The notes under the pieces were generated by a model, which searched no databases, was not told the DNA's origin, and was given only the letters and a program-made list of their open reading frames with translations. From Methanomicrobium sp. W14 (GTDB lineage: Archaea > Halobacteriota > Methanomicrobia > Methanomicrobiales > Methanomicrobiaceae): a DNA stretch of 64,000 bases. The stretch covers positions 62,001-126,000 of the forward strand of contig NZ_JAGGMM010000003.1 in NCBI RefSeq assembly GCF_017875315.1, in the 5' to 3' direction. A program made the position numbers and the translations under genes. Below, piece by piece: positions 24,907 through 54,710 of the stretch. Every line of letters starts with the position of its first letter. Within the stretch, counting starts at the first letter, position 1.

Positions 24907-27141
24907 TTTTCAATCCTTGTTTTATTGGATGTAACTCTTCAAGTAGGCTTAACCTTCACCAAAGAGTTTTTACTGTTCGGTTTCAATCCTTGTTTTATTG
25001 GATGTAACTCTTCAAGAATGCAGTTGCGGAAATGAAAACCGGGAAAGAAATTAGTTTCAATCCTTGTTTTATTGGATGTAACTCTTCAAGCTGGTTCACC
25101 ATAATACTAAATTACGCTCGCTCTAGTTTCAATCCTTGTTTTATTGGATGTAACTCTTCAAGCCTGCGGCTCCTGCTGAGGCTGCAGAACTTGTCTAGTT
25201 TCAATCCTTGTTTTATTGGATGTAACTCTTCAAGGTCGGGTAAGTGCCTTTGTAGTCCCAGGACAAACCGTGTTTCAATCCTTGTTTTATTGGATGTAAC
25301 TCTTCAAGACCGTCATCTGACCCACAGATAATTGATTTTGTTTCGTTTCAATCCTTGTTTTATTGGATGTAACTCTTCAAGTTCCGCCCGGCCCCCTCTC
25401 GTGCTACGAGTTCCAAGTTTCAATCCTTGTTTTATTGGATGTAACTCTTCAAGGATATCAGTAAGGCAAAAGAAGAGGCAGATGAAGCAGGTTTCAATCC
25501 TTGTTTTATTGGATGTAACTCTTCAAGGAAAGCGTGATACAGAGCGATCTCTATGCGCTGTAGTTTCAATCCTTGTTTTATTGGATGTAACTCTTCAAGT
25601 TCACCTTCTTTAGATACACCATAGTGGTGTATATGTTTCAATCCTTGTTTTATTGGATGTAACTCTTCAAGTTATCAGCAAATACAGCCGTAACAATGAA
25701 ACAGCTAAGTTTCAATCCTTGTTTTATTGGATGTAACTCTTCAAGAAAGTGTCGAGGTTTGCAAACTTGCGGGAATCGCAGTGTTTCAATCCTTGTTTTA
25801 TTGGATGTAACTCTTCAAGAGTATGGAAGAAACTAAACGAACTTGAAGAAAGAAGTTTCAATCCTTGTTTTATTGGATGTAACTCTTCAAGTTTTCCTGA
25901 AATGCTCTGGTCGTCTAGATTTATCTCTAGTTTCAATCCTTGTTTTATTGGATGTAACTCTTCAAGGCCCACGCGAATTAAATATGAATGTTTCCGGACG
26001 GGGTTTCAATCCTTGTTTTATTGGATGTAACTCTTCAAGATTCTCCAAAGATATATGTTTATACTCGCGTTGACGTTTCAATCCTTGTTTTATTGGATGT
26101 AACTCTTCAAGCCAGAAGAGAGATTATGCATATCGTCGGAATCGAGTTTCAATCCTTGTTTTATTGGATGTAACTCTTCAAGTTGCAATGAACAGGAATT
26201 ATTATTTATGGATAAGAAGTTTCAATCCTTGTTTTATTGGATGTAACTCTTCAAGGAAATTCATCTCTGAAAAGCCTTCAAGAGCAACGCAGTTTCAATC
26301 CTTGTTTTATTGGATGTAACTCTTCAAGTAATAGATATAAAGGAGAATTAAAATGAAAGAAGATTAGTTTCAATCCTTGTTTTATTGGATGTAACTCTTC
26401 AAGACAAACATAAGAGAATTCAAGAGAAGCATAGAATGTTTCAATCCTTGTTTTATTGGATGTAACTCTTCAAGACATACTCGTATGTAGCATTCGCCGG
26501 ATCGGGCATGAGTTTCAATCCTTGTTTTATTGGATGTAACTCTTCAAGCTATACATCCAAATGACGCAAGCGCATTTAAACCTTCGTTTCAATCCTTGTT
26601 TTATTGGATGTAACTCTTCAAGGTCAATACCATAGATTTCATACGCTTTGCTCCACGAAAGTTTCAATCCTTGTTTTATTGGATGTAACTCTTCAAGGGA
26701 CGGCGGTTTTCATATGATATCTGCACCAGTCATGTTTCAATCCTTGTTTTATTGGATGTAACTCTTCAAGATAGTAGTTGCGTATTGTTCTTTGTCCTCA
26801 AATATGGAGTTTCAATCCTTGTTTTATTGGATGTAACTCTTCAAGATCTTTTTTGTGCTGCTCTTCTTATAGCTGCCTCGGTGTTTCAATCCTTGTTTTA
26901 TTGGATGTAACTCTTCAAGCCTGATTCAAAAGCTTTTTTAGTAATTGCAATAGTATGTTTCAATCCTTGTTTTATTGGATGTAACTCTTCAAGAAGAAAA
27001 GATCATGAAAAAGACAAACATGCCTATGCCGTTTCAATCCTTGTTTTATTGGATGTAACTCTTCAAGATTTTTTCTCTTTCAAGAATCTTCCTTGCCGCT
27101 TGTAGTTTCAATCCTTGTTTTATTGGATGTAACTCTTCAAG
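24907..27141 (-). CRISPR. CRISPR array, 31 repeats and 30 spacers
   Basis: Repeats are 37 bp, spacers 34-38 bp. Repeat copies begin at 24907, 24980, 25054 and so on to 27105. On the plus strand the repeat begins GTTTCAATCC and ends AACTCTTCAAG. All copies look identical except the first (24907), whose first base is T rather than G. Read on the minus strand each repeat ends ATTGAAAC, the usual 8-nt 5' handle of type I-A/I-B and some type III crRNAs. Together with the altered terminal repeat at the left, this places the leader at the right and transcription on the minus strand. No cas genes are in the window, so the array depends on cas genes elsewhere. Confidence 0.98.
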
Positions 27142-27407: not shown

Positions 27408-29261
27408 TTATACAGACCTCATTTTTCCTGATACCGATACATCATAGCCGCCGGAATTTTTAAGTGCACTTTTAAACTCATCCGATGAAACGGCTTCAAC
27501 AAGCTTTTTTATTCTTTCATCAGAAAGCCCGGAGTCGCGTACTGCAAACTCATACCTTGCATAGGACACCGGAGAAAAATCAAGGCCATAGACCTTTGCG
27601 GACTGGTAAGATACAAAAGCTGCATCGCAGTCGCCGTTCAGGACTGACATTGCAACGGCAGTCTCGCTGTTGAGGACTTTGTCATAGCCTTCAACCAATT
27701 CGGATGATATCTTTTCTTCCGATATTGCCCTGTCAAAAAGTATCCGGGGCTCTGAACCGGGGGGCTGGTTTACAAACGAATGTTTTGCGACATCCTTTAA
27801 TGACAGGTTGTTTCTGGATGCTATCCCGTAGCTTATCCCGGCTATGCACAAGAGGCTCACCTTCGTTTCCGGAAGGTAGCGTTTCACCTGCTCTATATTG
27901 TACTCACCGTCCGGTGAAGGAATATGCATTGGTGCACAGTGGCAGACGTCCTTTTTAAGCGCAATGACACCCCCCATGTTCCCCGAACTTCCAATGTGGA
28001 GCACAACACCCGACTTTCTTAAAATCCCCGAAAGAACGCCAAGTGCAGGGTCTGCCATTCCTGTAACAAGAAGTGACCCGTCAGCATAGCTTTTTCCCTG
28101 GGTAAGAGTAACGCTCACCGTTTCACCGGCCGGGTACCCTTCAAGCCGCGACGGCACACGGAGAAATGCATTGGACCTGACTGAAGCCATCTGGACGCCC
28201 GCACCTCTTGACTGCTGGGCTGCAAGGTACCTGCCGTCCTTTTCCGCAACCGAGAGAAGCACAAACTCATCATAGCCTACATTTGATGTAATATCAGAAG
28301 AAAGCTCAACGTCAATCTTCCCGGACAGGGGACCTGTAAAACCCCATTTGTCAAGAAGAGGCCCCACAATCTCCCTTAATACGACCTGCGCAGATATCGG
28401 ATAACCCGGAAGGCCGATTACAGGTTTTCCCATAACTTTGCCGAGGATCATGGGTTTTCCGGGCATTATCGCGATGCCGTGAAAAATAAGCTCACCAAGT
28501 TCCGATATCGCACCCGCCGTAAAGTCCTTGGTCCCCGCGGAGGACCCGGCAGAGACAATTACAATATCGTTTTCCACTGCGGCTTTTTCAACAGCTTTTT
28601 TTATCATTTCAGGGTCGTCAGGTGTTATCGGGTAGCAACGTGCGTCAACCTTTCTTTCGGAAAACCATACAGAAGCCATAGGAATGTTACTCTCAACGAC
28701 CTGGCCGGGCCCTGGGACATTTCCAATCTCTACAAGCTCGCTTCCGGTCGGGACAAGGCCGGCCGAAAGTTTTCTTACACAAAGCTCCTTTATGCCGTAG
28801 GTCCCGAACGCTCCGGTATCAAAAGCTCTCATCCTGTGGCCCGCAGGTGCAATAAGTTCGCCTTTCTTTATGTCCTCTCCTGCCGGACGTACATTCTGCC
28901 AGGGCCTTGCGGCTTTCCTGACCGAGTAAACGCCGTTCTTCTCCCAGGTATCCTCTATCATCACGACAGAGTCGAATTCGGGCGGAACGAAATTACCGGT
29001 ATTGACACGCAGAGTTTTTCCGAGTGCTACAGGGTTCTGCTCCGATGCACCTACGGTCTCAGCGCTTTTGACCGCAATCCCGTCCATTGCTGAAGTATTT
29101 ACACACGGGACAGGATAACCGGCATAAACAGGTTCACGGAGAACACGGCCGCAGGAATTCTTAAGTGAAACCGTTTCGCGGGACTTTGGCTCGTCAAAGG
29201 ACGAGAGAACCTTTGACACTGCATCATCGAGACTTACCTGCGAGAGGTATCTTTTCACCAC
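27408..29261 (-). CDS. MoeA-type molybdenum cofactor protein fused to a periplasmic-binding-like domain
   Basis: A 617-residue two-domain protein. Residues 1-~400 are MoeA: VNTSAMDGIAV, the MPT-binding region VSAGSSAGTKDFT and LPGYPIS. Residues ~405-617 match the PBP-like (LysR substrate-binding-like) domain seen in archaeal MoeA/LysR fusions (start GMADPALGVLSGIL). MoeA inserts molybdate or tungstate into adenylylated molybdopterin; the extra domain may bind oxyanion or a pterin. It starts at GTG 29261, with GGAGG seven bases upstream, and overlaps the preceding moeA by 7 bp. The product would serve the pterin cofactor of formylmethanofuran dehydrogenase. Confidence 0.88.
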   Translation of the reverse strand: MVKRYLSQVSLDDAVSKVLSSFDEPKSRETVSLKNSCGRVLREPVYAGYPVPCVNTSAMDGIAVKSAETVGASEQNPVALGKTLRVNTGNFVPPEFDSVVMIEDTWEKNGVYSVRKAARPWQNVRPAGEDIKKGELIAPAGHRMRAFDTGAFGTYGIKELCVRKLSAGLVPTGSELVEIGNVPGPGQVVESNIPMASVWFSERKVDARCYPITPDDPEMIKKAVEKAAVENDIVIVSAGSSAGTKDFTAGAISELGELIFHGIAIMPGKPMILGKVMGKPVIGLPGYPISAQVVLREIVGPLLDKWGFTGPLSGKIDVELSSDITSNVGYDEFVLLSVAEKDGRYLAAQQSRGAGVQMASVRSNAFLRVPSRLEGYPAGETVSVTLTQGKSYADGSLLVTGMADPALGVLSGILRKSGVVLHIGSSGNMGGVIALKKDVCHCAPMHIPSPDGEYNIEQVKRYLPETKVSLLCIAGISYGIASRNNLSLKDVAKHSFVNQPPGSEPRILFDRAISEEKISSELVEGYDKVLNSETAVAMSVLNGDCDAAFVSYQSAKVYGLDFSPVSYARYEFAVRDSGLSDERIKKLVEAVSSDEFKSALKNSGGYDVSVSGKMRSV

Positions 29262-30466
29262 AAAAATACCTCCACTTCATCGCCTGCCTCATATCCTTCC
29301 CTTCCTCCCGGAACCCGGATGACGCCGTCGCTTTTAACCAGAGTGTTCAGTATACCGGATTTTCCGAACAAAGGCTCGGCAAGGTTTTCATCCGTTATCC
29401 TGACACGGACATACTCCTCCCTTCCCTTCTCCGAGGGGAGGCTTTCCGCAAGCTTAACCTTTACAACGGATTCGTTCTCCTTCAAAATTCCCGTCATTTC
29501 TCTTAAAAGATGCCTCACAATTACAGAAAGGACCATATATGTCGCCGCAGGATGACCGGGGATTCCTATTAAAGGTGTATCCTTAATTTTTCCGATTATC
29601 GTCGGTTTTCCCGGCGCAAGCATGACGCCGTGAGCAAGGACTTCTCCTTCGGAATAAACCGCTCTTGCCGTAACGTCCTTTATGTCCTTTGAACTTCCTC
29701 CGGATACCAGGATTAAGTCACATTCAGCAGGAGCATTTCTTAAAATGTCCCTCATGGCCTTTTCATCATCCCTGACAATTCCGAGGTGTTTTGGGATACA
29801 GCCGTGCTTTTTTGCAAATGCAGAGCAAAGATATGTATTTACGTCCCTTACCTCACCGGCTTTGGGTTTTTCATCAACCGGAATAATTTCTATTCCTGTC
29901 GATATTATTCCAACTACAGGTTTTTTTCGGACAGATACCCTGGATGCACCGACTGCTGCAAGGCCTCCTATATCGGAAGCGGAAAGCACGCGGCCCTCTG
30001 CAAAGACAAGCTCACCTTCTGAGAAGTCTTCACCTTCCAAAACAACGTTTTCCCCCGGTGCAACCGGCCTTTTTATGAGGACGTCACCTTCTACCTCGTC
30101 CGTGTACTCGACCATTACGACGGCATCAGCACCTTTTGGCATCTGGCCGCCGGTTGGAATATTCAGGCATTCGCCCGCACCCATTGTCATCCTCTCCCCT
30201 GCTCCCATCGGGATACGTCCCGTAAGCTTAAGCATTGAAGGCATACTGACAGTCGCGTTCACCGTTTCGGCGGCAGATACGGCATAGCCGTCCTTCCATG
30301 ACCTGTCAAAACCGGGTATGTTTATATCCGAATGCACATCTTCAGAAAGGACTCTTCCCACGGCATCCTCAAGAGCAACCGGCTCCGACCCGATAACGGG
30401 GACAATGCTTTTTGCAATCTTCACCGCCTCCTCTACGCTTATCAGATTCAAAAAATCTTTAGACAT
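29255..30466 (-). CDS. moeA: Molybdopterin molybdenumtransferase MoeA
   Basis: A 403-residue MoeA with the standard four-domain layout: FDRSWKDGYAV near residue 55, the MogA-like domain with VSGGSSKDIKDVTAR near residue 255, IPGHPAATYMVL near residue 300, and a C-terminal beta domain ending EVFLW. It catalyses metal insertion into molybdopterin-AMP. The next gene is a second, larger MoeA; two MoeA paralogues are common in archaea and may separate Mo and W use. Confidence 0.92.
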   Translation of the reverse strand: MSKDFLNLISVEEAVKIAKSIVPVIGSEPVALEDAVGRVLSEDVHSDINIPGFDRSWKDGYAVSAAETVNATVSMPSMLKLTGRIPMGAGERMTMGAGECLNIPTGGQMPKGADAVVMVEYTDEVEGDVLIKRPVAPGENVVLEGEDFSEGELVFAEGRVLSASDIGGLAAVGASRVSVRKKPVVGIISTGIEIIPVDEKPKAGEVRDVNTYLCSAFAKKHGCIPKHLGIVRDDEKAMRDILRNAPAECDLILVSGGSSKDIKDVTARAVYSEGEVLAHGVMLAPGKPTIIGKIKDTPLIGIPGHPAATYMVLSVIVRHLLREMTGILKENESVVKVKLAESLPSEKGREEYVRVRITDENLAEPLFGKSGILNTLVKSDGVIRVPGGREGYEAGDEVEVFLW

Positions 30467-31771: not shown

Positions 31772-32893
31772 ATGACCAGAAAAAACATGATTTGTTCCGT
31801 ATTGTGCGTTTTTTTCGTTTTATTTCTGCTGATTACCTCGGCAGCCTGCACATCATCGGAAAACACAGGTTACAACGATTCAAAGACAGTATCCTACACT
31901 GACGAATTCGGAAGGACACTTGAAGTCCCGGCAGACCCCCAGAGAGTAATCTCAACCTGCCCGACGACAACGACACTTGTGTATATGCTTGCCCCTGACA
32001 GGCTCCTGGGGTGGAACAATAAACCGGATACTACCAATATGCCGGAAAAATATGCAAAACTCCCGGTTATCGGTGGATGGTTCGGGCTTTGGAGCGGAAA
32101 CTACGAGACCATGCTTGCGGCAAACCCGGACCTTGTAATCTACGAGACAACGTATGACACGACCGACAAGTCCGATACAACCAGTCTTGAAGAAAAGCAG
32201 GCAAACTTCGGCAGCGTGCCTGTCGTAGGAATCTACGATTCCGGAAACCTGTCAGTACTTGACGACACGATAACAAAAGTCGGCAACCTTTTGGGAACCG
32301 GAGAAAAGGCTGAGGAACTTATAAAATTCCACGATGAAATGGAAGAACTCGTAAAATCACGCATTCAGAACATCTCAGGAGAGAACCGCACAAAAGTATA
32401 CTACGCTGAGACCCCGTCAGGTCTTTCAACAGATACTGCCGGAACCGACCACGCCAGGCTGATTTCATTGTGCAACGGAATAAACGTGGCCAACATAACC
32501 CAGCAGGGCGGACAGATGGGCCAGACAGAAGTTTCAATGGAGCAGGTCTTAAGCTGGAACCCTGACGTCATAATATGCAACCAGAAAAACTGCTATGACG
32601 AAATATTAAACGATTCGGTCTGGGGCCAGCTTGACGCAGTCAAAAACGGACGTGTATACTACAACCCGAGAGGACCTTTCTGCTGGTTTGACAGACCGCC
32701 TGGCGCAAGCACTATCCTGGGAATCCCCTGGACTGCGAAAGTTTTGTACCCTGACCTTTTCAGTGATGTGGACCTTGAATCACTGACACGCGGGTTCTAC
32801 TCGGAGTTTCTACATTACGACCTCTCCGACGACGAACTCCGGACTCTCATGCTGGGCGTCCCCTACAGTTCAGGTGAAGGCGGAAAACAATGA
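31772..32893 (+). CDS. Metal-chelate ABC transporter substrate-binding lipoprotein (BtuF/FepB-like)
   Basis: A 373-residue class III binding protein. A signal peptide ends in a lipobox (ITSAAC, Cys near residue 26). Two lobes follow, the first with YTDEFGRTLEVPADPQRVIS and the second with the family motif DRPPG...GIPWTAKVLYPDLF. It captures siderophore-, haem- or corrinoid-type chelates at the outer face of the membrane. The start has GGGAGAGG 8 bases upstream. No permease is adjacent; the permease and ATPase pairs at 50 and 62 kb may serve it. It overlaps the next gene by four bases. The exact ligand is unknown. Confidence 0.88.
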   Translation: MTRKNMICSVLCVFFVLFLLITSAACTSSENTGYNDSKTVSYTDEFGRTLEVPADPQRVISTCPTTTTLVYMLAPDRLLGWNNKPDTTNMPEKYAKLPVIGGWFGLWSGNYETMLAANPDLVIYETTYDTTDKSDTTSLEEKQANFGSVPVVGIYDSGNLSVLDDTITKVGNLLGTGEKAEELIKFHDEMEELVKSRIQNISGENRTKVYYAETPSGLSTDTAGTDHARLISLCNGINVANITQQGGQMGQTEVSMEQVLSWNPDVIICNQKNCYDEILNDSVWGQLDAVKNGRVYYNPRGPFCWFDRPPGASTILGIPWTAKVLYPDLFSDVDLESLTRGFYSEFLHYDLSDDELRTLMLGVPYSSGEGGKQ

Positions 32894-34680
32894 CGCAATG
32901 CGCATTTTGTGAGAACAGGTGCAGCATCCCCGAAGGAGAATCGGGGATCTGCAAAATGTACACAAATTTTTGCGGCGAAATAAAAGAGCGTTTTCCCGAC
33001 ATGTGGATGAACATGATGCCTATATCAATCGAGACCATGCCTATCCTTCACTGGCACCCGCGCTCGAAGATTCTCCAGATAAGCACAATCGGGTGTAACT
33101 TTTCATGTGAAGGCTGCGTATCCGAGATCTTCTGCAGGGACACAAAGGACCTGTCGGTATCGATGAAAAAGGCGTCAGCAGAAGAAATAGTGCAAAAGGC
33201 TGTCGATGAAGGTTGCATAGGCATCTCGTTCTGCCTAAACGAGCCATCGGTTTCCCTGCCGTCGTTTAAGAAGGTGGCAGTCCTTGCAAAACAAAAAGGC
33301 CTTTTTGCGGGCTGTTCGACAAACGGCTACTTTACTGAAGAATCAGCAAATGAAATCCTGCCGTACCTTGATTTCGTAAATCTCGGGCTTAAAGGGTCAT
33401 CGGATGAAAGGTACAGAGAGTGCAGGGCGCTTAAAGGCTCGGTGCCCCCGTTCAGAAATCTCGGGGCTTTCTACAATTCAGGCGTCCACTGCGAGACCTC
33501 CATAATGTATATAAGGGGCTTTGAGGACGAGGTTTTCAAAGCCGCCGAAAGGGTTGCTGCCATTTCCAGGGAAATCCCGTTTCAGGTGATGCGTTTTATC
33601 CCGTTCGGGGACTGCGACATATCAATGGAGCCCTCCATAAGCGAGGCTGAAGATTTGTGCGCCAAACTTTCCGAAAAACTGGACTACGTCTACCTTTTCA
33701 ATACCCCCGGAACGAAATGGCTGAACACAAAATGCCCCGGATGCGGCAAAGTGCTCTTTTCGCGTGAGTTTCACGGTCCTATGGGTGCAAAGACGCTGTC
33801 ATACCAGAAGAACCCTGGTAAATGCAGTTTTTGCGGCGCTTCAATTTCAATAAAAGGAGAGACTTCTGAAGAGATGTTCGAGGAATCAGGGATGCTCGGC
33901 GGCTACAGGCCCACACGTGCACTTGAGATGGTGCATGCAATTGCTGTCTGCCTCGGAGACTTAAGCGACGACAAAAAAGAGCAGCTGTTCAGGGACGTAA
34001 CAAAACAGGAGTTTATCGGCAGTATTCACGAAAAGATAAACGGCATTGACACTTACTTTGACCTGATAGCCGATATCGCAGAAAGAGCGGGCAAAGAGGA
34101 CGAGGGAAGAGCTCTCACGGACTACCTGAAGGAAAAAACCGACTTCATATCGGAAAAATCAAAAAACGCCCCAAAAAAACGTGTATACTACTGCATGGGA
34201 ACACCTCTTTTTGCACTCAACGCCGGAAGGTTTGAAATAGACCTCGTTGAATGTGCAGGCGGAATCGGAGTAAACAGGTCAATAGAACGCGAGGGAAAGC
34301 CCGGAGTAAACATCACACCTGAAGAGTTCAGAGAACTCAGCCCCGGGATAATACTTGTCTCAGGCCTTTTCTCGTCGTCACAGAAGGATTATCTCAGGCT
34401 GTGCAGTGAAAACGGACTTGAGGCGAAAGCAGTTTTTGAAAACAGAATTTACACGATTACACCGGGATGGGACTTCGGAAGTCCGAGGTGGGTCCTCGGT
34501 TTAATGGAGATTGCAAATATACTTCACCCGGAAATATTTTCGTTTGACATGAAAAAAGAGAGTTCTGAATTTTTTAAAAAGTTCTATGGCATTGACTACA
34601 ACCAGGTCCACCCGAACAGGTCGTTTTTTTCACCGACAGGAAAAAAGCACATTAAGGGATTATCTAACGAAAGTGCCTAA
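32890..34680 (+). CDS. Radical SAM protein fused to a binding-protein-like lobe
   Basis: A 596-residue cytosolic protein. An N-terminal Cys cluster (C4, C7, C11, C21) resembles PflA/AmmeMemoRadiSam-type proteins. The radical SAM site C69-x3-C73-x2-C76 binds a 4Fe-4S cluster. A zinc-ribbon-like pair CPGC and CSFC lies near residues 280-320. From about residue 430 (RVYYCMGTPLF) to ~580, the protein resembles the second lobe of the chelate-binding protein encoded just upstream (compare RVYY, IYTITPGW and NILHPEIF). The four-base overlap (32890-32893) indicates coupled translation. The arrangement suggests a radical enzyme that recognises the imported chelate and opens or modifies it; this is inference. 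No signal peptide. Confidence 0.75.
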   Translation: MTQCAFCENRCSIPEGESGICKMYTNFCGEIKERFPDMWMNMMPISIETMPILHWHPRSKILQISTIGCNFSCEGCVSEIFCRDTKDLSVSMKKASAEEIVQKAVDEGCIGISFCLNEPSVSLPSFKKVAVLAKQKGLFAGCSTNGYFTEESANEILPYLDFVNLGLKGSSDERYRECRALKGSVPPFRNLGAFYNSGVHCETSIMYIRGFEDEVFKAAERVAAISREIPFQVMRFIPFGDCDISMEPSISEAEDLCAKLSEKLDYVYLFNTPGTKWLNTKCPGCGKVLFSREFHGPMGAKTLSYQKNPGKCSFCGASISIKGETSEEMFEESGMLGGYRPTRALEMVHAIAVCLGDLSDDKKEQLFRDVTKQEFIGSIHEKINGIDTYFDLIADIAERAGKEDEGRALTDYLKEKTDFISEKSKNAPKKRVYYCMGTPLFALNAGRFEIDLVECAGGIGVNRSIEREGKPGVNITPEEFRELSPGIILVSGLFSSSQKDYLRLCSENGLEAKAVFENRIYTITPGWDFGSPRWVLGLMEIANILHPEIFSFDMKKESSEFFKKFYGIDYNQVHPNRSFFSPTGKKHIKGLSNESA

Positions 34681-49799: not shown

Positions 49800-50588
49800 T
49801 CACGCCTTTTTTGCGATTATCCTTGAAACAGGGATTATATACGGAATCCCTTCGTAAAGTCTTACATTAGCACGAATCCCGTAGACTTTCTCCAGATTTT
49901 CAGAATTTATAACATCCTCCGGCTCTCCTGCCGCAACGATTCTCCCTTTCTTCATCATAATGACGGCATCCGAGTACTTCGCCGCCATGTTCAGGTCATG
50001 AATTGCAATAACCGCCGTAATCTTCTTTTTTTTCACGAGCATCCCTATCACCTCCATCACGTCTATCTGGTGCCAGAGGTCAAGGCTGCTTGTCGGTTCA
50101 TCCAGAAGAATAAGTCCGGTCTGCTGCACAAGAGCACGTGCTATAAGGATCTTCTGCTGCTGACCTCCGGACAGTTCATTAAAACCTGAAAGTGCAAGCT
50201 CCTGCATCCCGAGAAGGTTTAAGACCTCCCACACCTCGTCCTCGTCAGATTTCTCCTCGTGCCAGCCAAGATACGGCCTTCTTCCCATTAAGACAACATC
50301 AAAAACACTGTTGGGAAAAGACCTTACCGAATTCTGGGGAACATAGGATATCGACTTTGCAAGCTCCATTCTTCTCATACCGGAAGTGTCCTGCCTGTCG
50401 ACAAGCACCTTACCTGATTTCGGTTCAAGAATCTTGTCGATGCATTTGATAAGTGTGGATTTCCCGGAACCGTTAGGCCCGAGAATGCTTACAACCTTTC
50501 CATATCCTACACTCATCGAAAAATCCTTCAGAATTTCGGTGCTCCCGTAGCTGAAGGAAAGATTTTTAACGGCAAGTTTTATTATCAA
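49800..50588 (-). CDS. Metal-chelate ABC transporter ATP-binding protein (FecE/BtuD-like)
   Basis: A 262-residue ATPase. Walker A GPNGSGKS near residue 38, signature LSGGQ near residue 140, Walker B LILLDEPTS near residue 160, and the H-loop AIHDLNMAAKY are all present. It powers uptake through the FecCD permease encoded just upstream, with which it overlaps by four bases (50585-50588). Confidence 0.93.
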   Translation of the reverse strand: MIIKLAVKNLSFSYGSTEILKDFSMSVGYGKVVSILGPNGSGKSTLIKCIDKILEPKSGKVLVDRQDTSGMRRMELAKSISYVPQNSVRSFPNSVFDVVLMGRRPYLGWHEEKSDEDEVWEVLNLLGMQELALSGFNELSGGQQQKILIARALVQQTGLILLDEPTSSLDLWHQIDVMEVIGMLVKKKKITAVIAIHDLNMAAKYSDAVIMMKKGRIVAAGEPEDVINSENLEKVYGIRANVRLYEGIPYIIPVSRIIAKKA

Positions 50589-51697
50589 GTCCAGTACTCC
50601 TTTCTCCTGCCGCGAAGAATCAGATACAAAAAGAACGGAACACCGATGACAGACATGGTAATTCCAGTCGGAATCACGACCGAGCCAAGCAGATTTACGG
50701 ATATGGCATCAGCAACCAGGAGTATGACCGCACCCAGACCACCTGCTGCCGGAACAAGGTACCTGTGATCGCTTCCAAGGATCATGCGGCCCATATGCGG
50801 TGCAACAAGACCGATGAATCCAATAGTCCCGATAAAAGAGACAATTGCGGCCACAAAAAGACTTGAAGCTATCATTATGTAAATACGTGTGAAATTTGCA
50901 TCAACACCCATACTCTTCGCACTCTCGTCCCCCACAGTCATCAGGTTGAGGTCCCATGCCTTGACGTAAATCAAAGGAGTGCAGATGACCGTTATGGCGG
51001 CAAGAAAAGCTATGCTGTTCCAGTTGAGATCAGACAGGCCACCCATCCCCCATGATGACATTATATCAAGCTGGTCATCATTTGCAATATAGTTGAAAAT
51101 CTGGTTTAAAGCCTGAAACATGTAGTTCACAGCAATTCCTGCAAGTATCAGCATTTCGGATGTCGCTCCCTTAAGAGATGAGAGAGCTATTATAAAACCG
51201 GAACAGAGGACTGCAAACAAAAAGGCGTTTCCCACAAGGAAATACGGACCTCCAAAGAGTACAACCCCGAAAATAGCTGCCAGAGACACCCCAAACTGCG
51301 CACCTGAGGATATCCCGAGGGTAAACGGACTTGCAAGAGGATTTTTAAGAACCGACTGCATAACACAGCCGCATACGCCAAGCCCGAAACCGGCGAGTAT
51401 TGCTCCTGCAACACGGGGAAGCCGGATCTGCCAGACTATATGATCAGCTAAAAGTGTTGTAGGAAACATGCCGGGTATGATCCCGTTTATTACAACGGCA
51501 TACACATCCGTCATTGTTATAGGCATAGGTCCTATCGTTATTATAAGACCAGAAGCTATTGCGGTGATGATAAGCAGAGCCAGCAAAAATATGAATTTTT
51601 TCCATACCGAAAGAGAATGCTTTTTTTCGACTTCGCTAATCTTTCCTGTCCGGGTTCTTTTTATTGAATACGCCTTTTTGGGAACAGGTCTTCTCAT
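50585..51697 (-). CDS. Metal-chelate ABC transporter permease (FecCD family)
   Basis: A ~370-residue permease with about ten helices and the family patches RLPRVAGAILAGFGLGVCGCVMQ, NPLASPFTLGISSGAQFG and FIGLVAPHMGRM. The ATG at 51697 (MRRPVP) has GGAG seven bases upstream; ATG 51721 would overlap the SPFH gene. A positively charged N-terminal tail of ~30 residues is unusual in length. It transports siderophore-, haem- or corrinoid-type chelates. Confidence 0.93.
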   Translation of the reverse strand: MRRPVPKKAYSIKRTRTGKISEVEKKHSLSVWKKFIFLLALLIITAIASGLIITIGPMPITMTDVYAVVINGIIPGMFPTTLLADHIVWQIRLPRVAGAILAGFGLGVCGCVMQSVLKNPLASPFTLGISSGAQFGVSLAAIFGVVLFGGPYFLVGNAFLFAVLCSGFIIALSSLKGATSEMLILAGIAVNYMFQALNQIFNYIANDDQLDIMSSWGMGGLSDLNWNSIAFLAAITVICTPLIYVKAWDLNLMTVGDESAKSMGVDANFTRIYIMIASSLFVAAIVSFIGTIGFIGLVAPHMGRMILGSDHRYLVPAAGGLGAVILLVADAISVNLLGSVVIPTGITMSVIGVPFFLYLILRGRRKEYWT

Positions 51698-51710
51698 ATA
51701 ACTGCTCCCT

Positions 51711-52481
51711 TCACCTTTCAAATGCTTTCACAAGACCTGCGGCCGTTGCCGCAGTGCAGTCACTTTTTTCCGTGCCTGTCGTGACGACAATCAGGTTTCT
51801 TTCTTTTGCAATTTCGGTGAGAGTCTGAAACTCCCTCAGCTTCATTGCAGCAGGAGTCTTTTCATAAAACTCCGCCGCCTCGCACATCCTTTCAGACGCC
51901 TGGAACTCACCTTCAGCAAGAATGATGCGTGCTCTTTTTTCCCTTTCGGCTTCTGCCTGGCGTGCAATTGCACGCAGCATATTTTCGGGGACAGACACAT
52001 CACGAATTGTGACTATATCAACGCTGACTCCCCAGGGTTCGGTAACTTTTTTTATCTCCTCCTGAATCTCCTGGTTTAACGAATCCCTCTCTGAAAGAAT
52101 TGTATCAAGCTCATTCTGCCCTAAAACATCCCTCAGAGTGGTCTGTGCAATAAGGGCGGTTGCGGCTTCATAGTCCTCAACTTCAACAACGGCCTGGCAT
52201 GCATCAGTTACATGGTAATAGATAATTGCATCGACGTCCACGCTGATGTTGTCCTTCGTTATGATAGTCTGTTTCGGAACGTCAAGCTGTCTTACACGCA
52301 GATCAACCCGCACAATCCTGTCAGTTACAAACAATAACGGAAACATCCCGGGTCCTCTTTCTCCTATAAGCTTTCCAAGCCTGAACAGTACAGCACGTTC
52401 ATACTGCCGCGTAATTTTAAAGGAAAGAAGAACTACGGCACAGACTACAATTATAACAAAGATTGCCTCAAAAACACCCAT
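51711..52481 (-). CDS. SPFH/stomatin-like membrane protein
   Basis: A 256-residue protein with one N-terminal transmembrane helix (residues ~5-22), then the band-7 domain (QYERAVLFRLGKLIGERGPG, RVDLRVRQLDVPKQ). A coiled coil with AREAEAEREKRARI-like sequence lies at ~165-200. Stomatin-type proteins scaffold membrane microdomains. It is the first gene of the operon and lies 13 bp before the permease, so it may organise this transporter. Confidence 0.88.
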   Translation of the reverse strand: MGVFEAIFVIIVVCAVVLLSFKITRQYERAVLFRLGKLIGERGPGMFPLLFVTDRIVRVDLRVRQLDVPKQTIITKDNISVDVDAIIYYHVTDACQAVVEVEDYEAATALIAQTTLRDVLGQNELDTILSERDSLNQEIQEEIKKVTEPWGVSVDIVTIRDVSVPENMLRAIARQAEAEREKRARIILAEGEFQASERMCEAAEFYEKTPAAMKLREFQTLTEIAKERNLIVVTTGTEKSDCTAATAAGLVKAFER

Positions 52482-52531
52482 TTAATACGCCTCATATATA
52501 ACAAAAGCAGTTTTTTGTAGATCCACTGATA

Positions 52532-52552
52532 TTAACATTTAAAAAATGTTAA
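52532..52552. promoter_or_regulatory. Perfect palindromic operator upstream of the SPFH-ABC operon
   Basis: The arms TTAACATTT (52532-52540) and AAATGTTAA (52544-52552) are perfect inverted repeats of nine bases with a 3-base spacer. The site is about 50 bp before the SPFH start, next to TATA-like sequence, and is also upstream of nothing else on the plus strand. TTAACA half-sites recur before other genes of the region. Confidence 0.6.
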
Positions 52553-52681
52553 CCAATAAGATTTATTAAATATTGTCATTTTATTATTGCCCCGCAAAAG
52601 AAATTTTTCAAAATTTTGCCGCAGTCAGGCAGACAAATTTAAAAAAAGCATAAAAAAATCATGAATTAAAGTTAAAACCTC

Positions 52682-53326
52682 CTATTCAGGATTTTTCCTG
52701 AAAGTTATCCAGAAACCCGAACTGTCTTTTTTCAGGCTGTAATCACTTATCCCTGCGCAGGCAAGGGCTTTATGGTAACTCTCAGGATTATGATCACCAG
52801 GAGGAAATTTTCTCCCTTCAGTTTTCCCCTTAAATTCACGGCGTCTTTTAATCTCACCGGGTTTTGACTTAACCGCCGCTGCAAGTTCAGGAGTCCCGAA
52901 CCCGCCGCCGATATATGCCCATCCCCCGGGACGAAGAATTCTGTTTATCTCGGAAAAGGCCGCTGTTTTGTCTTTCCAGAAGAACATCGACCCGCGGCTT
53001 ACTGCAAGGTCAAAAGAGTCGTCAGGAAACGGAATCACCTCGACATTGCCCGTAACAGCAAAGACCCTGTCTGAAAGACCTGCCTCAATGATGTTTTTCA
53101 TTGCAACAGCCGACATAGAAGAAGACAAATCAAAACTTAAAACAGAGAAAAATGTTTTTCTGGCCACTGCTATTGCAAGAGAACCCGGACCGCTTCCGAG
53201 GTCAACGCAAAGCCCTTCATTCAGACCTGTTTTCTCCACAATCTGTCCGGCTATCACAGGGTACACCATTTCATAATCTGTCTTTGCTATCCTGTCGAAT
53301 TTTTCGGCTGCCTCTTTATCGAACAA
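52682..53326 (-). CDS. Class I SAM-dependent methyltransferase (group II)
   Basis: A 214-residue enzyme. The SAM motif VDLGSGPGSLAIAVA lies near residue 42; SRGSMFFWKD and the C-terminal SGFWITFRKN are shared with the gene at 45.0 kb. It follows the binding protein at 53.3 kb by 17 bp on the same strand, so binding protein and methyltransferase form a two-gene operon. The acceptor is unknown; modification of the bound ligand or of its transporter are possibilities. Confidence 0.86.
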   Translation of the reverse strand: MFDKEAAEKFDRIAKTDYEMVYPVIAGQIVEKTGLNEGLCVDLGSGPGSLAIAVARKTFFSVLSFDLSSSMSAVAMKNIIEAGLSDRVFAVTGNVEVIPFPDDSFDLAVSRGSMFFWKDKTAAFSEINRILRPGGWAYIGGGFGTPELAAAVKSKPGEIKRRREFKGKTEGRKFPPGDHNPESYHKALACAGISDYSLKKDSSGFWITFRKNPE

Positions 53327-53343
53327 TACCCCACTTCCTTAGA

Positions 53344-54528
53344 TCAGGGTTCAATAAGGGATGAAAGTTCATCGTCAGTAAGGTTATAATGATAAAAAAC
53401 CGAGTAGAACTCCTTTGCACGGCTTTCAAACCATTCATCAGTAAATATTTCAGGGTACATAATATGTGCCGTCCACGGAATACCGACAATACGGTTTACA
53501 CCCGGCGGGCGGTCAAACCAGTTGTACGGATAACGCGGGGTCAGATAAACTCTTCCCGACTTGACAGCATCCGTATCATTCCACGCAACATCCCCGAATA
53601 CGTTTTCGTAGAATTCAGAACTCGTAGTAATTATGACCGACGGGTTCCATTTCAAAACTGACTCCTTTGTTACTTCGGTCATTCCCCGCCCCGACTCTAT
53701 CTCGCAGTCGGCAACGTTCACTCCTCCCCCAATATCTATAAGCTGTGAATGAAATGAACCGCCGGGGTCTGTTTGCAGTCCGTTGGAACCCTCTGCGTAG
53801 TAAACACGCACCCTGTCACCGTCCGGAATACCGGCAACTTTTTCCCGGACTTCACCAAGCACTTTTTTGTAGTAGGCAATCTCTGTATCGGCCACTTCAG
53901 GCACACCCAAAACATCACCCATAAACCTGAGACCTTTGTCATACTCCGTGGCATTGCGTGCATCAGGCATACTTACGACAGGAATTGTCCCTAGTTTCTC
54001 CTGTACATTTTCAACAGAGGAAATGTCACTTCCTTCAACATACATCACGAACACTATATCCGGGTCCATCATGATGTACTGTTCATAGTTCATCGAATCC
54101 TTCCACCCTACAAGAGGGATGTCCCTGTATTCCTCAGGAATATATTTCATACCCTCGTCAGAGAGAGACAACTGCCAGCCGCAGAGTTTGTCAGGCGCAA
54201 GCATGTAGACATACGTGGAAGGCGGAGGAGAAGTACACAAAACCTTGGAAATGTTTACAGGAATTGTAACTTCCCTTCCGGCCAGATCGGTAATTGTTCT
54301 TGTCAACGAAGTTTCATTTGCCAGATTATTGCCATAAGAACTGTAAACAGTTCCGTTGGACCCGGTAACTCCGGTGCCTGAATAGTCCAGTCCATCAACT
54401 TCAGTTTGCGAATTGCCGGTGGAAAAAAGATCCGAAGAACCGGAATCTCCCAACCATGCTGCACCGCAACAGATTATTCCCACCCCGAAAACCGCAAGGA
54501 GGATTAAGTAAGTACTTCTTTCTTTCAT
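53344..54528 (-). CDS. Metal-chelate ABC transporter substrate-binding protein
   Basis: A ~394-residue protein from ATG 54528 (GGTG lies 7 bases upstream). An N-terminal helix (LILLAVFGVGIICCGAAWL) serves as signal peptide or membrane anchor. The two-lobed binding domain begins ITDLAGREVTIPVNISKVL and carries FDRPPGVNRIVGIPWTAHIMYPE, close to the lipoprotein at 31.8 kb. It binds a siderophore-, haem- or corrinoid-like chelate. It is followed by a methyltransferase. Confidence 0.88.
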   Translation of the reverse strand: MKERSTYLILLAVFGVGIICCGAAWLGDSGSSDLFSTGNSQTEVDGLDYSGTGVTGSNGTVYSSYGNNLANETSLTRTITDLAGREVTIPVNISKVLCTSPPPSTYVYMLAPDKLCGWQLSLSDEGMKYIPEEYRDIPLVGWKDSMNYEQYIMMDPDIVFVMYVEGSDISSVENVQEKLGTIPVVSMPDARNATEYDKGLRFMGDVLGVPEVADTEIAYYKKVLGEVREKVAGIPDGDRVRVYYAEGSNGLQTDPGGSFHSQLIDIGGGVNVADCEIESGRGMTEVTKESVLKWNPSVIITTSSEFYENVFGDVAWNDTDAVKSGRVYLTPRYPYNWFDRPPGVNRIVGIPWTAHIMYPEIFTDEWFESRAKEFYSVFYHYNLTDDELSSLIEP

Positions 54529-54710
54529 AGAGTAACACCAGAACAAACCACTTTAAATCAATGTTTTTTACTTAACAAAGTAGTGCAATTCAATACATTC
54601 TTATTGAAAACATTTGAAAAAAAGCCTTTCGAAATTCATTTTGAGACAAACAAATTCAAAAATAAAATGTTTAAAAAAAATCAGGATTTTTATCTCTTTT
54701 AAACGAGAAA

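Follow-up and report, generated by a model that had tools for sequence, protein, structure and literature searches.

In a 64,000-nucleotide stretch of the Methanomicrobium sp. W14 genome (here called the window), we found a radical SAM enzyme whose C-terminal half is predicted to be one lobe of a class III binding protein, and this importer-tied enzyme proved to be widespread. An earlier note on this DNA had proposed that the enzyme modifies inside the cell the same metallophore or corrinoid that a coupled lipoprotein binds outside; the enzyme and its tie to an importer stand, whereas the corrinoid looks unlikely and a ligand common to both proteins is not supported. We observed the fold of the enzyme, the age and spread of the fusion, a conserved gene cassette around it, and molybdenum cofactor (Moco)/tungsten riboswitches heading clostridial operons. 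Together with its uptake operons, the fusion points to a new chemical step in the acquisition of molybdenum or tungsten (Mo/W) by anaerobes. Methanogenesis, CO2 fixation, syntrophy, and nitrogen fixation all depend on these metals, and many hosts of the fusion live in sulfidic habitats, where free molybdate is scarce. The literature we searched contained no organic Mo/W ligand taken up by anaerobes via a FecCD importer and no radical SAM enzyme devoted to such a ligand. Nor did we find the fusion or the cassette described in open-access literature: leads on DUF364-radical SAM, nitrogenase-like/FecCD clusters, tungsten metallophores, and AmmeMemoRadiSam all lacked the fusion, and the available part of the Methanococcus voltae proteome study (PMC9431491) held nothing on the family. 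The component families are known; no named system corresponds to their combination or to half a binding protein built into a radical SAM enzyme.

The lipoprotein and fusion genes (Table 1) were recovered as the coupled pair that the earlier note had described, with open reading frames sharing 4 nt (ATGA). The lipoprotein is a Peripla_BP_2 protein (Pfam E = 2.4e-25). The fusion contains a Radical_SAM domain above the Pfam cut-off (E = 3.6e-13), within which the CX3CX2C motif of the superfamily is present (C69, C73, C76). Neither these cysteines nor those of the N-terminal motif varied among 80 fusion and 15 unfused proteins, and all were found again in nine correctly read canonical AmmeMemoRadiSam proteins. 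Since no signal peptide was seen in the fusion, whose N terminus opens with the Cys motif, the protein is taken to be cytosolic. Its two CxxC knuckles probably form a zinc ribbon. In the AlphaFold model, the N-terminal half folds like pyruvate formate-lyase activating enzyme (Foldseek, 3c8f/8fo0). The best family model for the radical SAM half was TIGR04337 (AmmeMemoRadiSam; 97.2 bits, E = 8e-28), although this score falls short of the curated cut-off of 220 bits. The fusion thus resembles AmmeMemoRadiSam enzymes (TIGR04337, COG1180) in all Cys motifs and in overall domain but differs from them in its lower score, its own strongly supported clade, its extra lobe, and its importer linkage. To our knowledge, none of the members of the fusion family has an established enzyme activity.

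Table 1. Features of the lipoprotein-fusion locus and of related genes in the window
Feature	Position	Strand	Length or residues	Evidence
Two MoeA genes, molybdopterin metal insertion	27408-30466	-		Pfam PF03453, PF00994, PF03454, PF12727
Lipoprotein gene, class III binding protein	31772-32893	+	373 aa	
Fusion gene, radical SAM + class III binding-protein lobe, COG1180/AmmeMemoRadiSam-like	32890-34680	+	596 aa	
N-terminal Cys motif (C4, C7, C11, C21) and radical SAM core	32899-33540	+	residues 4-217	
Two CxxC knuckles (C282/C285, C312/C315), common to AmmeMemoRadiSam enzymes	33733-33834	+		
Lobe-2 domain with backbone helix, without lobe 1	34042-34638	+	residues 385-583	hhalign, Foldseek
ABC ATPase of FecCD importer	49800-50588	-		Pfam E 3.5e-33
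FecCD permease	50585-51721	-		Pfam E 1.4e-82
Class I SAM methyltransferase, MT1 type	52682-53326	-		Pfam Methyltransf_11 3e-19
Second binding protein, same type, head of remaining cassette	53344-54546	-		40.7% identical to lipoprotein at 31772-32893

The C-terminal region of the fusion had been said to resemble the second lobe of the lipoprotein, and profile and structure comparisons bore this out. Peripla_BP_2 was detected in the fusion below threshold (residues 387-524, E = 0.001, 19 bits versus a cut-off of 27.5), and BLASTP aligned the fusion with the second half of the lipoprotein at 23% identity over 194 columns (E = 3e-6). When an alignment of 46 fusion proteins was compared with one of 16 partner binding proteins using hhalign, fusion residues 385-583 were placed on lipoprotein residues 159-363 with a probability of 99.6% (E = 1.1e-23), a region comprising the backbone helix and the entire second lobe. 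A fusion profile searched against the PDB (hmmsearch) matched class III binding proteins at about residues 363-574, with E values down to 6e-17. The comparison of predicted fold that the earlier note had suggested came out in the same direction: in the AlphaFold model (pLDDT 90.7, pTM 0.90), the C-terminal half fit 4hn9 (7e-11; 2.0 Å over 193 columns) and 4ovk (5e-11) over about 190 columns at 2.0-2.6 Å, with 4pag, CeuE, and MolA among the other Foldseek matches. These profile and model comparisons argue that residues 385-583 are homologous to class III lobe 2 with its backbone helix. The identity given to residues 430-590 was therefore right, but their extent was not: the match is somewhat longer because the interlobe backbone helix is included. 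The fusion shows the class III lobe-2 fold and is not a complete class III binding protein, having lobe 2 only and no secretion signal. The architecture is unusual in that half of an extracytoplasmic binding protein would be reused in the cytosol as a domain of a radical enzyme.

The lobe is not a recent copy of a neighboring lipoprotein, as the earlier wording had implied. In a tree of lobe 2, the 36 sampled fusion lobes were monophyletic and lay opposite 38 binding proteins with 100/100 support. A tree of the radical SAM domain cleanly separated canonical AmmeMemoRadiSam enzymes, a lobe-less importer-linked clade (10 rows), and the fusion clade (59 rows, 99/99 support), with the canonical rows set apart at 100/100 from all importer-linked rows and the fusion thus outside the canonical clade. 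Five rows within the fusion clade lacked the lobe: two split or frame-changed genes of the Methanoculleus group, two genes located at the ends of contigs, and a Desulfosporosinus paralogue. The simplest reading of these trees is that the lobe was gained once, and they indicate a single ancient fusion clade that spans archaea and several phyla of bacteria. Archaeal carriers were Methanomicrobiales, with three paralogues in the W14 genome, a second archaeal family (f8), and a Desulfurococcales MAG; bacterial carriers included Thermodesulfobacteriota, Bacillota, Deferribacterota, Chlorobiota, Pseudomonadota, and others. The enzyme is separated from the lobe by in-frame stops in genome G035 (locus L038) and by a frame change in G060, each of which looks like decay or a true gene split. 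An internal TAG in several matches was considered as a pyrrolysine codon and rejected: where ORF lengths were checked, it was the terminal stop lying just within the aligned range. A 388-390-aa protein of the unfused sister cassette had no Pfam match, and its AlphaFold model (pLDDT only 51) was unusable.

The linkage of the fusion to binding proteins that had been seen in W14 persists in other genomes. In all 13 genomes of family f8, genes for the binding protein, a class I methyltransferase (MT1), the fusion, the FecCD permease, and the ATPase are contiguous in this order; since the cassette had already been proposed from other genomes when these loci came to light, they test it independently. 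Of the 35 fusion genes in 26 Methanomicrobiales genomes, 16 had a FecCD gene within 5 kb, compared with 0.70 expected by random placement (Poisson p ~1e-16, too small a value since the genomes are related; the excess is still 20-fold). Across a partly redundant set of 91 fusion loci, contiguous same-strand neighbors were MT1 (59 loci), the binding protein (39), the ABC ATPase (22), and FecCD (19). The commonest neighbor, MT1, is a partner absent from the earlier note; its family matches PDB entry 3dlc (E = 3e-91), labeled only "putative methyltransferase." In the window, a second binding protein, a methyltransferase of the MT1-type family that precedes the fusion in other genomes, FecCD, and the ATPase are grouped on the minus strand (49800-54546), and the cassette there is thus in two pieces; its nearest relative by identity (L071) keeps all cassette genes in one cluster. 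The two parts of the window cassette together hold the genes of a Mol-type importer, namely, class III binding protein, FecCD, and ATPase (31772-34680 and 49800-54546).

Gene content varies around this core. DUF364 genes recur next to the fusion among the 91 loci. A TonB receptor gene lies between the binding protein and the fusion in Desulfobacter (L125), and others occur in Chlorobium and Thiobaca fusion loci; these receptors are more in keeping with a scarce or bulky ligand than with a free oxyanion. Opp/Nik-type importers stand beside the fusion in L054 and L059, and some fusions have no importer gene nearby. An unfused sister clade (L135-L138, L062-L065) occupies similar operons and has no lobe. 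In Desulfosporosinus (L096), the operon encodes nitrogenase-like D, K, and H proteins, a hint that certain hosts carry out additional reductive steps. The isethionate cluster isrBHDK (PMC11423573) also combines a radical SAM gene with a nitrogenase-like set; we rejected it as a relative of L096, as its radical SAM protein is BciD-like and its importer is of the SsuABC type.

Regulatory RNAs bear on which metal the cassette serves. The Moco/tungsten riboswitch RF01055 (Rfam) was found 21 to 261 nt upstream of the first gene of the operon at seven distinct clostridial loci (L098/L099, L100, L131, L135, L136, L137, and L138), which places several clostridial cassette members in the riboswitch regulon, although four of these loci (L135-L138) carry the lobe-less sister enzyme rather than the fusion and all of the evidence is clostridial. 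A further RF01055 lies directly after the fusion in L129. The genome of Syntrophomonas wolfei is about 3 Mb, and even at its density of these RNAs (~5 per Mb), a given 300-nt stretch would hold RF01055 in ~0.15% of cases. With at least 15 such RNAs, this species had the richest genome known in 2008, according to the main text of Regulski 2008 (PMC2408646). That text proposes Moco as the ligand of aptamers that have stem P3 and the tungsten cofactor as that of aptamers lacking it, and a term search of it returned no radical SAM gene and no siderophore-type importer. In our aptamer alignments, P3 was present at the fusion loci L098, L100, L129, and L131 and absent from the lobe-less sister loci L135, L136, L137, and L138, a correlation that is a lead rather than a result because the sample is small and phylogenetically clustered. 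RF01055 was absent from the 64-kb archaeal window, and the clostridial evidence is therefore extended to archaea by homology.

Given these riboswitches, a ModABC-linked paralogue, similarity to MolA, and the DUF364 neighbors, the metal of the cassette is probably molybdenum or tungsten and not a corrinoid. In phmmer searches of the PDB, the closest characterized relative of the lipoprotein was MolA (HI1472; 3psa, E = 7.8e-21), with the uncharacterized 4pag (5e-42), 4ovk, and 4hn9 nearer. MolA belongs to the type II molybdate importer MolBC-A and also binds tungstate (PMC4031551). MolBC-A (HI1470-1472, Haemophilus influenzae) shares with the cassette a class III binding protein, a FecCD-type permease, and an ATPase; it differs in having no described radical SAM enzyme or methyltransferase, and MolA is only moderately similar to the lipoprotein. 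In the W14 genome, the paralogue operon L031 reads ModA-ModB-ModC-MT1-fusion. In the paper on the first DUF364 structure (Dhaf4260), gene context linked the family to the transport of molybdate, tungstate, vanadium, and iron, and the synthesis of pterin- or siderophore-like chelators was put forward as its role (PMC2954201). These DUF364/DUF4213 "heavy-metal chelation" proteins are thus recurrent neighbors of the fusion with the same metals by context, though different proteins of putative function. Counting against the Mo/W processing model set out below are the lobe profile, which scores the heme protein IsdE above MolA; a nonsignificant enrichment of ModA near fusions (2 of 35 within 10 kb in the 26 Methanomicrobiales genomes versus 0.57 expected, p = 0.11); the restriction of riboswitches to clostridia; the absence from the lobe of the polar cleft residues of the lipoproteins; and the loci with Opp/Nik-type importers or none.

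We also asked whether lipoprotein and lobe could share one ligand, as the earlier note had supposed, and the residues lend this no support. In lobe 2 of the partner lipoproteins, E213, T220, H227, and R308 are invariant and D307 nearly so; their counterparts in the fusion lobe are M436, L443, E449, G530, and F529, respectively. The lobe has invariant residues of its own (P439, N462) and others nearly invariant (C505, W534), and the positions conserved in both groups (V432/V209, Y433-Y434, G457-G458, P485, A514, P532, G537, and P547) are mostly scaffold. From loop placement in the class III fold, the differing polar residues would sit in the cleft. Because the lobe is under its own strong constraint, it may bind a processed ligand, a metal-free ligand, or an item held jointly with the radical SAM domain.

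We propose that, within a Mo/W uptake cassette, the fusion and MT1 process an imported Mo/W ligand in the cytosol, a reading we hold to be plausible and somewhat short of probable. The Mol-type lipoprotein would catch a Mo/W species outside, and the FecCD permease and ATPase would carry it inward; there, the fusion lobe would hold the species, or the organic carrier of the metal, over the radical SAM site while the fusion and the adjacent methyltransferase alter it chemically. In the simplest outcome, the metal would be released or handed over for synthesis of Moco or the tungsten cofactor. We infer that a Mo/W complex would be the ligand in archaea too, that the lobe would bind it, and that the reaction would be ligand processing; a small-molecule role for the lobe is favored because a folded lobe with its own conserved residues has been kept across phyla. 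A broader version, which we regard as tentative, is a new Mo/W route common to anaerobic archaea and bacteria in which an imported or self-made organic complex is bound between the radical SAM core and the half binding protein and is freed or reshaped by radical chemistry and methylation, the lobe-bearing form serving molybdenum (P3 present) and the lobe-less form tungsten (P3 absent). The five-gene methanogen cassette and its clostridial relatives behind a known riboswitch make the question of the ligand testable.

The main rival, which we consider unlikely, is metallophore synthesis: the fusion and MT1, joined at some loci by DUF364 and other methyltransferases, would build a Mo/W metallophore that is exported and reimported through the importer, and the lobe would bind this product, or the complex it forms with the metal, as a means of feedback or product control. 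Metallophore operons elsewhere, such as staphylopine cnt, do pair synthesis genes with an importer. The ModABC-linked operon fits metallophore synthesis slightly better than ligand processing, since MT1 and the fusion stand there beside an importer that brings in no chelate, and molybdenum limitation would call for a chelator; the proposed role of DUF364 in chelator synthesis (PMC2954201) points the same way. One Methanoculleus group has a MATE exporter gene next to the cassette, but the exporter is confined to that subgroup, and the annotated neighbors include no amino-acid-activating, NRPS, or opine enzymes, leaving a two-enzyme core with no obvious precursor route. That the fusion instead processes a corrinoid, heme-like tetrapyrrole, or ferric chelate, the version closest to the earlier note, is improbable. 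Such ligands are the best known for class III binding proteins and FecCD permeases, BtuF and heme and ferric-siderophore proteins were among the fold matches, and the D-K-H set of L096 belongs to a class that includes tetrapyrrole reductases. However, regulatory and genomic evidence favors molybdenum or tungsten: the operon heads are Moco/tungsten riboswitches, no cobalamin riboswitch was present in the ~430 kb of bacterial loci scanned, the fusion is ModABC linked in the W14 genome, the lipoprotein is nearest to MolA among characterized proteins, and no corrinoid gene that would mark a BtuF/BtuCD importer appeared among the annotated recurrent neighbors. Similarly improbable in our estimation is a lobe that serves as a structural or protein-docking module with no small molecule, the enzyme having a protein substrate or working at another point in molybdate/tungstate metabolism. 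Cleft residues unlike those of the lipoproteins and the lobe-free operons of the unfused sister clade would fit such a module, whereas the lobe's retention by almost every member across phyla of archaea and bacteria and the strong conservation of loop residues such as P439, G457-G458, N462, and W534 argue against it.

Two MoeA genes near the fusion were rejected as operon partners of the cassette: they lie on the other strand, and MoeA genes were near only 2 of the 91 fusion loci, the W14 locus included. The MoeA at 27408-29261 ends in a PBP_like domain (PF12727) and so resembles the fusion in joining a cytosolic enzyme of Mo/W metabolism to a binding-protein-like domain, although the domain family is different and MoeA is not a radical SAM enzyme. 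Like the MoeA genes, genes with molybdopterin and amidohydrolase domains, which we read as encoding subunits of formylmethanofuran dehydrogenase, lie within 7 kb.

The gene for the radical SAM enzyme fused to a binding-protein lobe is not always linked to the same transport system. In a divergent subgroup of the fusion (homologous loci L054, L059, L105, and L120), the genes that immediately precede it encode a small NTPase and an ABC importer of the Opp/Nik type, indicating that the FecCD system is replaceable by another importer type. Additional enzymes were observed in Desulfosporosinus. The importer operon of Desulfosporosinus fructosivorans (L096) includes nitrogenase-like D, K, and H genes, and in Desulfosporosinus BRH_c37 (L129) the fusion and the Moco riboswitch have two more radical SAM genes within a few kilobases. 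In two Methanoculleus-group genomes (L038 and L060), the enzyme and lobe occupy separate open frames, reflecting either decay or a true gene split.

The unfused, lobe-less sister gene was adjoined in L062, L063, and L064 by long binding proteins (736 to 764 aa), which apparently comprise two tandem class III units. In Desulfobacula and clostridial loci, a protein of 388 to 390 aa follows this gene; it contains the conserved motifs VG(N/S)RS and EC..R and gave no Pfam matches, and its AlphaFold model was of too low quality for use. Judged by eye, the ORF following the lobe-less gene in L062-type archaeal loci resembles this protein.

Within the window, a gene encoding MoeA with a C-terminal PBP_like domain, adjoined by a second, plain MoeA gene, lies 2.5 kb from the lipoprotein gene. 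Besides the fusion, whose role in Mo/W metabolism is probable, it is a second Mo/W-metabolism enzyme bearing a cytosolic binding-protein-like domain.

Features in the window and in homologous loci (L numbers; positions within each locus)
Feature	Position	Strand	Remark
CRISPR array, 31 repeats	window 24907-27141	-	match to Rfam CRISPR-DR7
MoeA with C-terminal PBP_like domain	window 27408-29261	-	PF12727
Nitrogenase-like D, K, H genes	L096 4190-7899		methyltransferase on one side, fusion on the other
Two further radical SAM genes	L129 2017-3027 and 4408-5445		BATS domain in one of the two
Split fusion gene	L038 8032-9768; L060 7990-9727		in-frame stops, or frame change
Long binding protein	L062 5690-7972; L063 9062-11272; L064 9034-11328		
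388-390-aa protein or similar ORF	L088 5303-6475; L093 5415; L135 8996; L137 4330; L138 8228; L062 8899		
Opp/Nik-type importer locus of divergent fusion subgroup	L054 3899-9693
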